Source: Vulcanimicrobiia bacterium (GTDB lineage: Bacteria; Vulcanimicrobiota; Vulcanimicrobiia; Vulcanimicrobiales; Vulcanimicrobiaceae). From it: a DNA stretch of 64,000 bases. Shown here piece after piece: positions 6,077 through 15,416 of the stretch (its first letter is position 1; each line of letters opens with the position of its first letter). The translations under genes were made by a program, and so were the position numbers. The notes under the pieces are model-generated. The model ran no database searches and had not been told where the DNA came from. It was given only the letters and a program-made list of their open reading frames with translations. The stretch lies in NCBI GenBank assembly GCA_025934645.1, contig JAICWY010000001.1:1-64000 (forward strand). Reading direction: 5' to 3'.

Positions 6077-7689
6077 AGTTCGCAGGACTTATCGACGCGG
6101 TGACCGCCGGCGCGCTGCAGGCGGCGTGGATGAATGCTGCGCTTTCGCCCGTGAGTGAGCCCGGGCGCCGCGCCGCAGATCTGCTGCGGCCTTTCGTTCG
6201 CGGCGAGGAAAGCGATGCAAACGATCGGGCGCAGCTCGTCATGCGTTTTGCCGGGCGCATCGATGCGAAGCGCGTGGACGCCATGCGCGACGCGCTGCGC
6301 GGATCGCCGGATCCGCTGCCGGCCATTTCACGCGCGGCGATGGGAGACGTGCTTGACGACGCGCAATTCCTGGAACTGCAGCGTTTTTTGGACGCCGCGG
6401 CGCGCATCGACGCGTTGCTCGACGGTGAAGAGGCGCCGCTCGTCGACGAGGCTTGCGCAGCCCTTGCGCGCACACTCGAGCGCGGGCGCGCCGGAAAATT
6501 CGGATTTTACCTTGCCGACAACTTCGATGCTTCGCTGAGCGCGGCTCGCGCCGATGCCGATCGCGCGCAAGCCGAGTACGACAGCGCGCGCGGGCGCTTG
6601 GCCCAACGCGTCGCGCAGGCGCTGGGACGCGACGAGCCGCCGGCCGGGGAGTTCATCGTCATGCGCGAGAGCGTCCCGCAATTGCCGCAAGGCGTTCGCG
6701 CGATCCGCGAAGCGCCCACGTATTATTTGTGCGAACTGGAGCTCGATGCGCCGGCGGTGGAAGCGCTCGGGAAACGCGACGCGGCGAACGCGCGCGTTGC
6801 AGCCGCCGAGCAAAGCGCGCGCGTAATGCTTTCGAAAAACGTGCGCGATGCGGTGCAGGCATTGGAAACGCTGACCGTGCGTGCCGGGCAACTGGACTTA
6901 CTGCTGGCGCACGCGCGTTTCGCGCAGCGGTACGATTGCGTGGCGGCAACGATAGAACCGGGCGCGGGCATCGCGTTCGCGCAAGCGCGCTACCTGCCGC
7001 TCAAGGCCGAGCTCGACGCGCAGGGCCGCCGCTACGAAGCAATATCGATAGAACTGCGCGACGTCGCGGTGCTCACAGGGCCGAATATGGGTGGAAAAAG
7101 CGTCGCGTTGCGCACCTGCGGATTTATCGCGCTGCTCGCAGCGTTCGGCGTTCCGGTTCCGGCGCAATCGGCGGCGCTGTGTTTGTTCGACGAGATCGCG
7201 TGGCTCGGCATCGGCGCGTCGGAAGACGGCGGCGGATTGCTCTCGTCGTTCGCACGCGAGGTCGTGCGCTTGCAAGAGATTCTCTCGCGCGATTCCACGC
7301 GCATGCTCGTGCTCGTGGACGAATTCGCGCGCACAACCACTCCGTACGAAGGAAAGGCGCTGCTCGTCGCGCTTATCCGCGTGCTGCGCCGGCGCGGACG
7401 CGTGGCTTTTATCGCAACGCACTTGGCCGGGATCGCGCGCGACGCTCGCGTGCGTCATTTCGCGGTCCGAGGTTTACGCAATATCCCGCGCGCCCGCTCG
7501 GGCGATCTGGACGCCGCACTGGCCGCGCTTGCCGACTCGATGGACTACGCCGTGGTGGAGGTCGGCGAGAGCGCCGAGCGCCACGCGGACGCGATTGCCC
7601 TGGCACACTTACTGGGCTTAGACGAAGAGATCGTCGCAGAGGCCGGCACCGTCCTCGCTGAAGAAACAGGCATGTCATGGATCCGCTGA
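6073..7689 (+). CDS. MutS-family ATPase resembling KamC (aminomutase reactivase ATPase)
   Basis: A 538-residue protein with the MutS ATPase domain in its C-terminal half. Walker A is at about 336-343 (GPNMGGKS), the signature region is LLSSFAREVVRLQEIL, Walker B with catalytic acid is at Asp416/Glu417 (LVLVDEFARTTT), and the switch His is in ATHLAGIA. The mismatch-recognition domain I of true MutS is absent, and the length is far short of the 850 or so residues of MutS. It starts inside the KamB-like gene (4-nt overlap) and ends 13 nt inside kce, so the three are tightly coupled. Known KamC proteins are MutS-like. The substrate enzyme is inferred, not seen. Confidence 0.6.
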   Translation: MKFAGLIDAVTAGALQAAWMNAALSPVSEPGRRAADLLRPFVRGEESDANDRAQLVMRFAGRIDAKRVDAMRDALRGSPDPLPAISRAAMGDVLDDAQFLELQRFLDAAARIDALLDGEEAPLVDEACAALARTLERGRAGKFGFYLADNFDASLSAARADADRAQAEYDSARGRLAQRVAQALGRDEPPAGEFIVMRESVPQLPQGVRAIREAPTYYLCELELDAPAVEALGKRDAANARVAAAEQSARVMLSKNVRDAVQALETLTVRAGQLDLLLAHARFAQRYDCVAATIEPGAGIAFAQARYLPLKAELDAQGRRYEAISIELRDVAVLTGPNMGGKSVALRTCGFIALLAAFGVPVPAQSAALCLFDEIAWLGIGASEDGGGLLSSFAREVVRLQEILSRDSTRMLVLVDEFARTTTPYEGKALLVALIRVLRRRGRVAFIATHLAGIARDARVRHFAVRGLRNIPRARSGDLDAALAALADSMDYAVVEVGESAERHADAIALAHLLGLDEEIVAEAGTVLAEETGMSWIR

Positions 7690-8525
7690 TCGTCACCGTA
7701 GCGCCCGTTGGCGCGGAGCTCACGCCCGAACAGACGCCGCACTTGGCGGTTACGCCCAAAGCCTTGGGTGAGGTCGCGCGCACCATACGCGAGGCCGGCG
7801 CGTCCATGATCCACGTGCACTGCCGCAACGACGACGGCAGCAACACGCACGAAGTCGGCCGCTTCAAGCAAGCGTACGAAGCGATCCGCAGCCAGAGCGA
7901 CCTGATCGTGCAGTTCTCGACCGGCGGCGCGATCGGCATGTCGCCCGAGGAGCGTGCCTCGGTGCTGCAGCTGCGCCCCGAAATGGCGACGCTAACCTGC
8001 GGCACCGTGAACTTCGGAGACGACGTCTTCGAAAACAGCTTCCCAATCATGCGCGGCATCTTGAAGAAGATGCACGAGCATGGCGTGAAGCCCGAACTCG
8101 AAATTTTCGACAAAGGCCATCTAACGAACGCGCGCCGCTTGGAGAAGGAAGGCCTGCTGGAATTCCCGGCCCACGTAGATTTCGTGCTGGGCGTGCCCGG
8201 CGGGCTAGACGCCACCGTGCAAAACCTCTGCGATTTAGTCGACGCGCTGCCGCCGGGGTGCACGTGGTCGGTCGCGGGTATCGGACGTATGCAGCTGCCC
8301 ATGGCCATGGCGGCGCTCGCGATGGGCGGCCACGTGCGCGTCGGCTTGGAAGACAACATCTATTATTCGAAGGGGCGGCTTGCGACGAACGCGGAGCTGG
8401 TCGCGCGCGTTGTCCGGTTGGCGGAGGAGCTCGGACGGCCCGTCGCCACGCCGGATCAGGCGCGCGAGCTGCTTGGGCTGGCAAGGAAAAGCCCGGGCAT
8501 TGAAGCAACTATGGCGGCGCCCTAA
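7677..8525 (+). CDS. kce: 3-keto-5-aminohexanoate cleavage enzyme (BKACE / DUF849 family)
   Basis: A 282-residue TIM-barrel enzyme of the beta-keto acid cleavage family, which condenses a beta-keto acid with acetyl-CoA to release acetoacetate and a CoA ester. Zinc ligands are visible as His46 and His48 (MIHVHCRND) and Glu225 in VRVGLEDN. Glu14, at the position used by characterised Kce for the substrate amino group, is present. QFSTGG and GVPGGLDA are further family motifs. Together with the Kam-like genes this favours the lysine-derived substrate 3-keto-5-aminohexanoate, though BKACE members vary widely. ATG start, overlapping the KamC-like gene by 13 nt. Confidence 0.82.
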   Translation: MDPLIVTVAPVGAELTPEQTPHLAVTPKALGEVARTIREAGASMIHVHCRNDDGSNTHEVGRFKQAYEAIRSQSDLIVQFSTGGAIGMSPEERASVLQLRPEMATLTCGTVNFGDDVFENSFPIMRGILKKMHEHGVKPELEIFDKGHLTNARRLEKEGLLEFPAHVDFVLGVPGGLDATVQNLCDLVDALPPGCTWSVAGIGRMQLPMAMAALAMGGHVRVGLEDNIYYSKGRLATNAELVARVVRLAEELGRPVATPDQARELLGLARKSPGIEATMAAP

Positions 8526-10555: not shown

Positions 10556-10642
10556 GCGCGAGTGGCGGAATTGGTAGACGCACTAGCTTGAGGGGCTAGC
10601 GCCCGCAAGGGCGTGCTGGTTCGAGTCCAGTCTCGCGCACCA
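10556..10642 (+). tRNA. tRNA-Leu (anticodon GAG)
   Basis: An 87-nt class II tRNA. The acceptor stem GCGCGAG (10556-10562) pairs with CTCGCGC (10632-10638), followed by discriminator A and an encoded CCA (10640-10642). The anticodon arm is CTAGC-TTGAGGG-GCTAG with GAG at 10590-10592, reading CUC/CUU. The long variable arm (GCCCGCAAGGGC) and T-arm (CTGGTTCGAGTCCAG) are intact. It has its own promoter upstream and a strong terminator downstream, so it is probably a monocistronic unit. Confidence 0.97.
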
Positions 10643-10833: not shown

Positions 10834-13800
10834 GTGTGGTTAACCCGGTTCGCGATTAGCCGCCCCGTCATCACCGCCATGGTCTTCGTGGCGTTGGTCA
10901 TCTTCGGTTTTATCTCGTTCTTGCAACTTGGGCGCAGCTCCAATCCGCCGAACACGGATTTTCCCGTCGTCGTCGTGAGCGCGTTCTACCCCGGCGCGTC
11001 GCCGCAAGACATGGAACGCATGGTCATCAAACCGATCGAAGACCAGATGCAGGGCATCGACAATCTTGATCAGATGACCGCAACCGCGCAAGAAGGCACG
11101 GCCAGCGTCGTCGTACAGTTCAAACTCGGCACCGATCTGAATCTCGCCGCGGTCGACGTGCAGCGCCGCACCGATACTGCGCGCATCTACATGCCCAGCG
11201 ACCTCGATCCGCCTTCGGTCGATAAAGCCGGCCAATCCGAACCTCCGCTGCTCAACATCGCCGTCAGCTCGAAAAAACTCTCGCAGCCCGAGATTGCGGA
11301 TCTGGTCAACAACCAGGTCTCGCCGCTGATAAAGCAGATTCAGAACGTGCAGTCCGTCGATGTGCGCGGCGCGGCCGATCGCGAGTTCCACGTCGTCGCC
11401 GATCCGAACCGGCTGGTGGGCGTGAATGCTACGCTGCCCGATCTCTTCAATGCGATTGCGAGCAATAATCTCAACGTGCCGGGCGGCATCATGACGCAGC
11501 CGACGCAGGAAGCGACCGTAGCGGTTCACTCGTACATCGAGAACGTCAACGACATTCTGGGCATTCCGCTCACCGTTCCGGGCTCGGCCGACAAAAATTT
11601 AAAAGTCGGCGATGTGGCGAATGCTTACGATAGCCACATCGAGATGCGCACCATCTCGCATTACAACGGCAAACCGCGGGTCTATCTGAGCATCAATCCG
11701 GTCCTCGGCGCAGACCAGATCAAAGCTACGCAAACGGCGCGCGCGCAAATGGCCAAGATCGAAGCGCAGTTTCCGCAACTGACGTTTACGGATATCGACG
11801 CGCCCGGCGACTACACGTCCAAGATGCTTTGGGGCGTGTGGCAGTCACTAATCGAAGGGATCTTCCTTACGGCGATCGTCATGATGCTCTTTCTGCACGC
11901 GTGGCGCAACGCTGCCGTGGTCATGATCGCGATTCCGACGTCGATTCTGGCGACGTTCATCGTGATGAAGATCATGAACTTCCACATCGACGGTCTCTCG
12001 ATGATGGGATTAGCGCTTATTATCGGCATTCTCGTGGACGACTCGATCGTCGTTTTGGAGAATATTACGCGCCATAGGGATATGGGTCAGGATGCGGTGA
12101 GTGCCGCAATCAACGGCCGTAGCGAAATCGGCGGCGCCGCGATCGCGATTACGATGGTCGACGTGGTGGTGTTCCTGCCGATCGCGTTCCTCCCGGGCAT
12201 CGTCGGCGCATACCTGAAAGAATACGGCATGGTCGTCGTAACGGCGACGCTGTTCTCGCTCTTCGTCTCGTTCACGCTCACGCCGCTGCTCGCCGCGCGC
12301 TGGAGTTTGAAGAAGCGTTCCGCTGAGCCGAAGTGGCTTGGAATGCTCGACAACCGCGCGCTGGACGCCGTGTTGATTACAGCCGCCGTGGTGATGTTCG
12401 TAGCGGGCAACGCAACGGGCTGGTTCCTGCTCAACGTGCTCGGCGTATTCGTCTTCGCGCTGCTCTTGCTGAACGCGATCGTGCACCGCTACGATGCGAT
12501 CTTGAACGTGTATCACAAGAAACTGCTGCCGTTTGCGCTCGCGCATGGTGCCTTCGTCGTGTACGTCTGCGTCTTGCTGCTCGTCAACGCGCTCATGCTC
12601 GCCGGCCCCAAAGGCGGTCAAAGCGCGATTTGGGTGGATCTCGCGTTTATCGCAGGCTGCGCCGTGGTCTACTTCGTCGCGTGGCTGCTCCGCTTCAACC
12701 GCGGCGGGAAACGGCCGCGCGGCTTCGCGAGCATGGGTGCGTATCGTCCGCTTACGATCGCAACGTTCGTGCTGCCTTTGATCGTCGGCGCCGGCGCGTG
12801 GGCTCTCGGCGGCGTGAGCACGGACTTCATGCCGCAGCAGCAAGACGGCGCGATCAACATGACCGTCAGCTATCCGCCGGGAACGCCGATCGCTACGACC
12901 GACAAATACGTCGTCTCGCTGGAAGACGCAATCATGAAGATCCCGGGCGTCAAGTCGGTCAGTTCCAACGTTGGTCTGAAGCGCTCGGGCTACGGCATGT
13001 CGCGTGGCGGAAACTACGCGATGCTCAACGCGCAGATGGAAGACGCACACATCAAAGACACGAACAAAGCGGCCGCGCAAATCCGCAAACTCACGTATTT
13101 GGTCCCCGGCGGCGAATTGCAAGTCGCAGGCGATAACGGCGGCGGGTCGGCGATCTTCTACGCGCTCACCGGTCCCGAAGACGAACTCGGGCCGGCCGCC
13201 GAAAAAGTCGCGAAATTTTTGCGCGGCATTCCGGGTTCGGTGAACGTGCAAACATCCGCTGAGGTGGCCGCGCCCCGCTTGAACGTCGACGTAGATCCCG
13301 GCAAAGCGTCGCTGCTCGGCGTTTCGCCGACGGCCGCAGCCAACGTCGCGCGCATCGCGGTCGACGGCGCCGTTGCAACGAAAGTCCGCACGGCGAACGG
13401 TCTGGTCGACGTGCGCGTGCAGTTCCCGCAAGCCGATCGCAACACCGTCGAAGCGCTCAAGAACGTGCGCGTCCGCGCGCAAGACGGCACGCTCGTGCCG
13501 CTCGGCAGCGTGGCAAACTTCACGTGGACGAAAGCGCCGACGAAGATCGAGCGTTTGAACCGCGAGCGCGTCATCAACGTGCTCGGCGACGTGCTGCCCG
13601 GATACTCGCTCGGTCAAGTCACGGGACCGCTGCAAGCCAAACTGCGGCAGCCCGGCTTCCTGCCGCCCGGCGTCGGACTTACCGCGCAAGGCGACTCGCA
13701 GTTTATGCAAGAGACGTTCACCAACATGGGCATTGCGCTCATCATGTCCGCAATGCTCATCTACATGCTGATGGTCGTGCTCTACGGATCGTTCCTCGAG

Positions 13801-14286
13801 CCGCTGATCGTCATGTTCTCGGTGCCGCTCGCGATCATCGGCGCCTTGGTGTTGCTTGCGTTCATGGGCAAAGTTCAACCGGAACACGGGCAGTCGCTCA
13901 ACATCATCTCCATGTTGGGCATCATCATGCTCTTCGGATTGGTGGCGAAGAACGGTATTCTGCTCGTCGATTATTCGAACACGCTCGTGAAGCGCGGCAT
14001 GCGCGTTCGCGAAGCGGTGCTCGAAGCAGCCTCGACGCGTTTCCGTCCGATCATCATGACGACGGCCGCGATGATCTTCGGCATGCTGCCGCTCGCCCTG
14101 GGTTATGCCGAAGGCGGAGAGTGGCGCCAGGCGATGGGCACGGTCATTATCGGCGGCTTGATGAGCTCGCTCATCCTCACGCTCTTCCTCGTGCCGATGG
14201 TGTACAACACGTGGATGGGCTGGTTCGAACGGCGCGCCGATGCGCGCGCGCTCAAAGAGGAGATGCGCGAAACCGTCACCGCCTAA
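10834..14286 (+). CDS. RND efflux transporter, AcrB/MdtB (HAE1)-like, with extra membrane segment
   Basis: An inner-membrane proton-driven pump of 1150 residues. Family features are the N-terminal FAISRPVITAMVFVALVIFG, the TM4 proton-relay pair Asp402/Asp403 (GILVDDSIVVLEN), and the TM10 lysine Lys1039 (GLVAKNGILLVDYSN). Compared with AcrB (Asp407/408, Lys940) the second relay residue lies about 104 residues later. The surplus falls at about residues 510-655, where four extra hydrophobic segments appear between TM6 and the TDFMPQQQDG start of the second periplasmic domain. GTG start. No membrane-fusion protein or outer-membrane channel is adjacent, so substrate and partners are unknown. Confidence 0.92.
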   Translation: MWLTRFAISRPVITAMVFVALVIFGFISFLQLGRSSNPPNTDFPVVVVSAFYPGASPQDMERMVIKPIEDQMQGIDNLDQMTATAQEGTASVVVQFKLGTDLNLAAVDVQRRTDTARIYMPSDLDPPSVDKAGQSEPPLLNIAVSSKKLSQPEIADLVNNQVSPLIKQIQNVQSVDVRGAADREFHVVADPNRLVGVNATLPDLFNAIASNNLNVPGGIMTQPTQEATVAVHSYIENVNDILGIPLTVPGSADKNLKVGDVANAYDSHIEMRTISHYNGKPRVYLSINPVLGADQIKATQTARAQMAKIEAQFPQLTFTDIDAPGDYTSKMLWGVWQSLIEGIFLTAIVMMLFLHAWRNAAVVMIAIPTSILATFIVMKIMNFHIDGLSMMGLALIIGILVDDSIVVLENITRHRDMGQDAVSAAINGRSEIGGAAIAITMVDVVVFLPIAFLPGIVGAYLKEYGMVVVTATLFSLFVSFTLTPLLAARWSLKKRSAEPKWLGMLDNRALDAVLITAAVVMFVAGNATGWFLLNVLGVFVFALLLLNAIVHRYDAILNVYHKKLLPFALAHGAFVVYVCVLLLVNALMLAGPKGGQSAIWVDLAFIAGCAVVYFVAWLLRFNRGGKRPRGFASMGAYRPLTIATFVLPLIVGAGAWALGGVSTDFMPQQQDGAINMTVSYPPGTPIATTDKYVVSLEDAIMKIPGVKSVSSNVGLKRSGYGMSRGGNYAMLNAQMEDAHIKDTNKAAAQIRKLTYLVPGGELQVAGDNGGGSAIFYALTGPEDELGPAAEKVAKFLRGIPGSVNVQTSAEVAAPRLNVDVDPGKASLLGVSPTAAANVARIAVDGAVATKVRTANGLVDVRVQFPQADRNTVEALKNVRVRAQDGTLVPLGSVANFTWTKAPTKIERLNRERVINVLGDVLPGYSLGQVTGPLQAKLRQPGFLPPGVGLTAQGDSQFMQETFTNMGIALIMSAMLIYMLMVVLYGSFLEPLIVMFSVPLAIIGALVLLAFMGKVQPEHGQSLNIISMLGIIMLFGLVAKNGILLVDYSNTLVKRGMRVREAVLEAASTRFRPIIMTTAAMIFGMLPLALGYAEGGEWRQAMGTVIIGGLMSSLILTLFLVPMVYNTWMGWFERRADARALKEEMRETVTA

Positions 14287-14351: not shown

Positions 14352-15416
14352 ATGGATCTATTCAAACGGGTCGCGTCGGCAGCGGCCGCCGTGGCCTTGC
14401 TTGCTGCCGTTTCTGCACCCGCGCTCGCGGCGAACGTAAACGTCGTCGTGAACGGCCAAGTGATGTCGTTCGATCAGCCGCCGGTGATGCGCAGCAACCG
14501 CGTCTTCGTGCCGATGCGCGCCATCTTCGAACGCTTGGGTTCGACGGTCGTGTATTCCAACGGTACTATCAACGCGCAAGGCAACGGCCACGCCGTTCAT
14601 CTGCACATCGGATCGACGGAAGCATCGGTAAACGGCAATAATTTCGCGATGGACGTCGCGCCGTTCACCGTTGCGGGCCGCACCGAAGTGCCGTTGCGTT
14701 TCGTCGCGCAAGCGCTAGGCGCGGGCGTCAGCTGGAACAGCAACACATCGACGGTCTATATCAATACGTCCGGCGGCAATAATTCGCCGAACCAGAACTA
14801 CACGCCGCAGCCCTCGACGAACGCCTCGTTCCACGTAACGGACGAGTCGCCGGCGAACGGCGCGACGGCGTCTTCCACGCATCCGGCGATTCATGCCTCG
14901 TTCAGCGAAGCGGTCAATCGCGATTCGCTCAGAGTGAGCATCGACGGTCATGACGTGACCACGCTCGTCTATGCGAATACGAATGGGTTCGACGTAACGC
15001 CGAACTTCGAACTCGCACCGGGCACGCATAAGGTCACGCTGACCGGCACGACCGCGGCAGGAGCGGCATTCAATACCGGTTGGTCGTTCGTGACGTCGGC
15101 GCGAGCGGCGGCGAACTATATCAACAACCTCAGTCCGGGGCCGGGCGCCAAAGTTGCCAGCACGTTCACCGTGCGCGGCCACACGATCCCGGGTTCCAAG
15201 GTACACGTCGTTGCCACCGGCACAGCGGCCGCGTTAGGCGGATTGCTGCAGATCGGCACCGGCACGTTCCAGAACGACGTGACGGCCGACGGCAACGGCA
15301 ACTTCAGCGTCTCGATCGGTCTCAACGCCGTCTCGGGCGGTCAAGTGCGCGTCATCCTGACGTCCACCTCGCCCAGCGGCGCGTCTATCGAACGCCAAGT
15401 GGTCTACAGCAGCTAA
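14352..15416 (+). CDS. secreted protein with copper-amine-oxidase-N stalk domain and Ig-like repeats
   Basis: The protein has 354 residues. A signal peptide (MDLFKRVASAAAAVALLAAV, cleaved near ALAANV) is followed by a stalk domain at about residues 30-135 (VVVNGQVMSFDQPPVMRSNR, RAIFERLGSTV and EVPLRFVAQALGAGVSWN). This is the Copper_amine_oxidN1 fold, which does not by itself mean an oxidase. After a Ser/Asn/Pro linker come two beta-sandwich modules: Big_5-like (SPANGATASSTHPAIHASFS) and a second from about 255 to the end. ATG 14352 is preceded by GGAGGAG. It is probably a cell-wall or surface protein. The reading frame is open far upstream, but that part is antisense or shadow to the RND gene. 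Confidence 0.82.
   Translation: MDLFKRVASAAAAVALLAAVSAPALAANVNVVVNGQVMSFDQPPVMRSNRVFVPMRAIFERLGSTVVYSNGTINAQGNGHAVHLHIGSTEASVNGNNFAMDVAPFTVAGRTEVPLRFVAQALGAGVSWNSNTSTVYINTSGGNNSPNQNYTPQPSTNASFHVTDESPANGATASSTHPAIHASFSEAVNRDSLRVSIDGHDVTTLVYANTNGFDVTPNFELAPGTHKVTLTGTTAAGAAFNTGWSFVTSARAAANYINNLSPGPGAKVASTFTVRGHTIPGSKVHVVATGTAAALGGLLQIGTGTFQNDVTADGNGNFSVSIGLNAVSGGQVRVILTSTSPSGASIERQVVYSS

Follow-up and report, generated by a model that had tools for sequence, protein, structure and literature searches.

An AcrB-type RND efflux pump of Ca. Eremiobacterota with 16 predicted transmembrane helices and two insertions around the interfacial helix Ialpha

The window, i.e., the whole stretch of 64,000 nucleotides from a Vulcanimicrobiia bacterium that was analysed here, carries the gene of an AcrB-type pump, P0001, whose membrane domain is predicted to hold 16 helices. 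HAE1 RND permeases have 12 helices, and we take them to be class 2.A.6.2 of TCDB; the 16-helix pump is a variant within this known kind, and the lineage of uncultured bacteria carrying its gene belongs to Ca. Eremiobacterota. By analogy with AcrB and its small partner AcrZ, we regard P0001 as rather probably a proton-driven AcrB-type RND efflux permease, in which two helix pairs, inserted into the cytoplasmic-side linker between the halves, have enlarged the membrane domain from 12 helices to 16 and act as an attached AcrZ-like accessory. The gene and the residues of its conserved core are located as follows.

10834..14286, + strand: HAE1-type RND permease P0001, 1150 aa, GTG start (Pfam ACR_tran, NCBIfam, PDB fold match)
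12037..12042, + strand: proton-relay D402-D403, equivalent to AcrB D407/D408 (alignment with AcrB)
13948..13950, + strand: K1039, equivalent to AcrB K940 (alignment with AcrB)
14038..14040, + strand: R1069, equivalent to AcrB R971 (alignment with AcrB)
14059..14061, + strand: T1076, equivalent to AcrB T978 (alignment with AcrB)

P0001 matches the HAE1 RND profile over its full length; the match to Pfam ACR_tran reaches 730 bits (cut-off 28) and is split into two stretches that flank the insert. The NCBIfam models of RND permease subfamilies match as well, all below their own cut-offs, with RND_permease_2 at 652 bits against a model cut-off of 1250. The finding is relevant to annotation, since profile searches break these proteins into two pieces. 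Alignment with AcrB recovers all five of the residues D407, D408, K940, R971 and T978, which we take to be the proton relay, and the Asp pair and the lysine fall where the earlier note had placed them. An AlphaFold2 model of P0001 built on 51 sequences (mean pLDDT 87, pTM 0.81) has the AcrB fold, including the periplasmic domains. In a PDB fold search, the model matched AdeB 7b8p with a Z of 49.1 (991 residues aligned, rmsd 2.6), and the best matches listed, on AdeB, AcrD and AcrB, gave Z 48-49 over 968-1002 residues and left the insert unmatched. Among the PDB sequence matches listed (60 of 83), all proteins are 1031-1069 aa long. P0001 departs from the family in its helix number, 16 predicted instead of 12; because 12-helix orthologs occupy the same chromosomal address, it is filed as an atypical HAE1 variant and kept in the family.

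The linker from TM6 to the second periplasmic domain (residues 488-662) measures 175 aa in P0001 versus 66 in 12-helix orthologs, an excess of 109 residues that is distributed in two blocks around Y560 of Ialpha: 72 versus 29 residues before it (+43) and 103 versus 37 after it (+66). The spacing between the relay Asp and Lys is 636 residues versus 532 in AcrB, and this difference of +104 agrees with the roughly 104 extra residues counted in the earlier note. The same note had assigned them to a single insert at about residues 510-655; the extra hydrophobic stretches do lie there, but they form two insertions flanking Ialpha and not one block. The two insertions are independent, as orthologs with the second alone exist. 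A scattering of the extra residues over loops was rejected, since the excess forms two blocks. In 76 rows, the distance between Y560 and P667 separates cleanly into two peaks, at 39-51 or 86-176 residues. The parts of the linker are given below.

12355..12483, + strand: insertion 1, extra helix pair, residues ~508-550 (helix 508-528 and N-terminal half of helix 531-570; +43 aa before Y560, model, hydropathy)
12484..12546, + strand: interfacial helix Ialpha, residues ~551-571, with conserved Y560 (aligns with AcrB 520-538; C-terminal half of model helix 531-570)
12547..12600, + strand: helix H3, residues 572-589, by sequence continuing the ancestral TM7 (C579 in 7/7 insertless f1 orthologs; model)
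12613..12696, + strand: helix H4, residues 594-621 (model, hydropathy)
12697..12744, + strand: basic cytoplasmic linker, residues ~622-637 (charge of 620-641, net +6.6 per row in 22 rows)
12745..12807, + strand: helix H5, residues 638-658, running into the second periplasmic domain (model, hydropathy)

AlphaFold2 places helices of the linker at 508-528, 531-570 (the second extra helix together with Ialpha), 572-589, 594-621 and 638-658, with a moderate pLDDT of 76-86 in blocks of ten for the first helix pair; the linker modelled by itself was poor (pLDDT 63, pTM 0.40). Linker hydropathy shows five peaks in the window protein and in 20 of the 22 rows with both insertions (four peaks in one row, six in another), and a single peak in all seven insertless orthologs of the window's family, hereafter f1. 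Over the 22 rows, the net charge per row is +3.7 (488-510), +1.3 (551-572) and +6.6 (620-641) in the pieces predicted to be cytoplasmic, and -0.2 (528-531) and +0.2 (592-599) in the loops predicted to be periplasmic, a pattern with which membrane-crossing helices fit. Hydropathy and charge bias, together with the homologues and the confident model, thus support the prediction of four extra helices, 16 instead of 12 with the in-out topology kept. Judged by sequence, H4 and H5 appear to be the newcomers, and H3 the continuation of the ancestral TM7. A simple free-energy scan was not used for helix counts because it misses helices even in 12-helix pumps, finding merely 7-10 in four rows of these. 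Searches with the insert gave no match in the PDB sequences at E up to 5 and nothing over the cut-off in Pfam (best E 0.37).

Orthologs with the same extra stretch share 55-74% identity with P0001. RND relatives turned up in all 60 related genomes searched; among the matches listed, full or split orthologs with frames of ~1150-1245 codons occur in many genera of f1, and shorter ortholog frames (e.g., 1042-1104 codons) in other genera. The insert region was matched in 67 of 149 genomes of the phylum, all 67 in f1. Because these include matches to Ialpha-TM7 only, e.g., in genome G005 with its insertless gene, the same insertion is given for about 60 genomes of this family, which is the outcome of the homologue search that the earlier note had suggested. 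The position of the pump gene is marked by a tRNA gene.

10556..10642, + strand: tRNA-Leu(gag), just upstream of the pump and after the oligopeptide permease pair; marks positional orthologs

The tRNA-Leu(gag) is present in all 20 ortholog loci scanned, 12- and 14-helix versions included, and the genes met repeatedly around the pump are those of an oligopeptide permease, an SDR and an M1 peptidase. The shared tRNA and the recurring neighbours identify these genes as positional orthologs, and the same address in f1 holds 12-, 14- and 16-helix versions. A gene for BKACE (beta-keto acid cleavage enzyme; window 7677-8525) stands directly before the oligopeptide permease genes, an order that recurs in orthologous loci.

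The two insertions were followed within f1 on trees made without the linker columns. Alignment excluded 8 of 70 relatives (1000 aa or shorter) and 8 of 88 proteins of a named set; 12 of the 62 usable rows in that set did not enter the alignment for modelling, in 8 cases because their linkers were divergent or long. Both insertions are present in 22 of 34 f1 orthologs, the second alone in 5 and neither in 7, i.e., the helix pairs were gained or lost as separate pieces. The window's own clade of 23 rows carries both in 22, with L044 devoid of the first. The first insertion changes twice and the second five times on the 38-row tree (four and seven times on the 76-row tree), counts that do not separate gain from loss. 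The AU test rejected a tree that unites all carriers of the second insertion in one clade, at p 2e-43 (1e-5 without L053; the groups were named after the tree had been seen). A profile of H3-H4 nevertheless recognised the hairpin clearly in L044 (28.1 bits), L248 (23.5), L064 (17.7) and L047 (15.2), with 0 of 200 shuffles scoring as high, and more weakly in L048 (8.9) and L249 (8.5; 1 and 0 of 200 shuffles as high, respectively); L053 and L247 reached 2.4 and 2.0 bits, with 8 and 12 of 200 shuffles as high. As the hairpin is recognisably the same despite the AU rejection, it probably has one origin in f1, followed by several losses or by transfer through recombination. One RND ortholog, L064 (7233-10769, genome G008), has five linker peaks and two helix pairs after Ialpha with none before it, and so appears to have reached 16 helices by another path.

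Beyond the lineage, the named set (80 rows including the window) contains 71 outside rows fetched regardless of their linker. A linker of at least 110 residues was found in 10 of the 71, and at least three hydrophobic linker peaks in 7 (L101 and L113 are near copies). The helix-pair-like insertion lies after Ialpha in L101, L113, L105 and L164, which form the Armatimonadota/Abditibacteriota group of the tree, and before it in L103 (Chloroflexota) and others; these have no clear sequence likeness to the hairpins of P0001. In f3, another family of the window's phylum, genomes G043, G051 and G054 have an insertion only before Ialpha. Tandem RND pairs were observed in this family (L070 12609-19206, L075 10544-17169, L080 10427-17084), where the second gene alone carries the pre-Ialpha helix pair; RND pairs in other phyla (L118, L116, L156) have a long, partly hydrophobic linker before Ialpha in the first gene.

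The H3-H4 profile, a short one that makes for a weak test, showed no clear likeness in eight rows of other phyla, all at 0.6 bits or less; shuffles scored as high in 4 of 200 cases for L156, 9 of 200 for L118 and at least 45 of 200 for the other six. A profile of the first insertion, likewise short and used without a positive control, showed no likeness in L070, L075 and L080 of f3, nor in L067, L156, L116 and L118, and was marginal in L103 and L124 (5 and 4 of 200 shuffles as high). A single origin of the hairpin over all phyla was accordingly set aside, and the sequences are read most simply if both junctions received insertions repeatedly and independently. A broader idea, which we put forward only tentatively, is that the RND linker may be a general docking port at which lineages in several phyla independently installed built-in accessories. 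The helix number would have risen in steps, first to 14 and then to 16, and the accessories would act in cis on the pump, a tuning for which AcrB has AcrZ in trans. Under the docking-port idea, the Eremiobacterota series, with all three forms at one address, would be a ready natural experiment.

In the second hairpin, two polar residues covary.

12586..12588, + strand: N585, first residue of the covarying polar pair, in H3 (68-row table)
12637..12639, + strand: D602, second residue of the polar pair, in H4 (68-row table)

Over 68 rows with the second insertion (four duplicate loci, L209, L228, L232 and L241, were excluded), positions 585/602 read N/D in 53, N/N in 10, swapped D/N in 2 and S/N in 1, and both polar sides are gone together in 2 (L/G and M/G); the H4 alignment is less certain for L053 and L247, and since related rows share changes, independent events are fewer than these counts. 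Position 585 is Ala, Thr, Ser, Gly, Leu or Val in 11 aligned insertless rows. The pattern fits a contact between H3 and H4 near their periplasmic ends.

We hypothesize that the pump would run the usual three-step rotation, driven by protons, with the extra helices facing the lipid next to TM7 and Ialpha, and the hairpins clamped by the N585/D602 pair. The attached helices would stabilise the membrane domain, shape its lipid contacts and tune substrate entry, as AcrZ does for AcrB. Several orthologs live without the insertions, which are therefore dispensable for the pump's task in those species. The strongest competing explanation, to which we assign a minor share of the probability, is that the added helices are passengers without structural effect: hydrophobic hairpins would be tolerated in the cytoplasmic-side linker, where they drift in and out and leave the pump unchanged. 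Such drift is consistent with the variable presence among orthologs (five changes of the second insertion on the 38-row tree) and with the wide length range of insert-bearing rows, 86-176 residues between Y560 and P667, as well as with the insertions found elsewhere at these two junctions, which show no clear likeness. On the other hand, Asn/Asp stand on both sides of the pair in 65 of 68 rows, with joint loss in 2, and 22 of 23 members of the window's clade have kept the first insertion, which suggests selection on the hairpins.

A second alternative concerns the missing partners of the pump. No MFP or OMF was recognised beside the pump in 41 loci (cluster representatives judged by eye, the window by Pfam), so that the tripartite arrangement with both encoded alongside was not found, in line with the earlier note's description of a gene that stands without adaptor or outer-membrane channel. 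It is conceivable, though unlikely, that the extra helices make up for the missing adaptor, with the pump alone moving substrate from the membrane to the periplasm and the wider domain replacing adaptor support. The absence of MFP and OMF at all 41 loci is in its favour; however, insertless orthologs and relatives equally have no adjoining adaptor, which is thus not special to the 16-helix form. Moreover, a check of the genome (~85% complete), which the earlier note had proposed, located MFPs away from the pump locus, by MacB-like permeases (C118) and MFS exporters (C135, C143), together with an MFP-OMF gene pair on C123 (L195 5574-8298). This pair lies beside oligopeptide-binding proteins, with no pump recognised among the tested neighbours, and no adaptor was found by eye among the ORFs of the short stretches around the other two RND genes (C117, C118). 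If the accessory-bearing pump uses an adaptor, it would come from elsewhere in the genome. Vulcanimicrobium alpinus, a cultured relative, has an outer membrane with LPS (PMC9758169). Downstream of the pump lies another candidate.

14352..15416, + strand: secreted PF07833 (Cu_amine_oxidN1) protein, also with an Ig-like domain, downstream of the pump (Pfam)

Of 30 loci, 28 had more than 1 kb of sequence 3' of the pump (2 were too short), and a PF07833 relative was detected there in 18 of the 28. By group, these are 12 of 18 loci from the window's clade, 3 of 4 that have the second insertion only and 3 of 6 insertless ones. The protein is a possible periplasmic partner of the pump.

It is very improbable that N585/D602 forms a second protonatable site that lets the enlarged domain couple additional protons or a different ion: an acidic residue is present in 55 of 68 rows (53 N/D and 2 D/N), but 10 rows have N/N, one has S/N and two have lost the pair, and near the predicted periplasmic end of the hairpin a structural hydrogen bond suffices. 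An assembly artefact or partial gene duplication, for which nothing was found in favour, is practically ruled out, since the same stretch recurs with graded divergence in dozens of separately assembled genomes, in orthologs at 55-74% identity.

P0001 shares with AcrB, AcrD, AdeB, MexB and MdtB the HAE1 fold, the two periplasmic loops, the D-D-K-R-T relay and the single-gene pump, and differs from these 12-helix pumps in its 16 predicted helices and the lack of an adjoining adaptor gene. Measured between matching boundaries, its linker comes to 176 aa, whereas the other two RND genes of the genome have 63-73 aa there and most relatives 66-73 aa. According to PMC7267776, AcrZ binds the membrane part of AcrB and alters resistance to a subset of AcrB substrates; AcrZ-AcrB thus resembles P0001 in having extra helix material beside the membrane domain, but AcrZ is a separate small protein, whereas the four helices of P0001 are in-chain, and the functional likeness is one that we infer. 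The EmrB-type 14-helix MFS exporters (PMC8277102) are secondary transporters with one helix pair beyond their 12-helix relatives; EmrB belongs to another superfamily than P0001, and the analogy is architectural only. In the open-licence PMC literature, as far as its text was available, no RND pump with extra helices was found, a scope that does not prove such a pump to be unpublished. RND pumps have been treated as an invariant 12-helix machine; the 16-helix pump shows a membrane domain open to modular additions, and with orthologs of 12 and 14 helices at its address, what these additions do can be tested directly.
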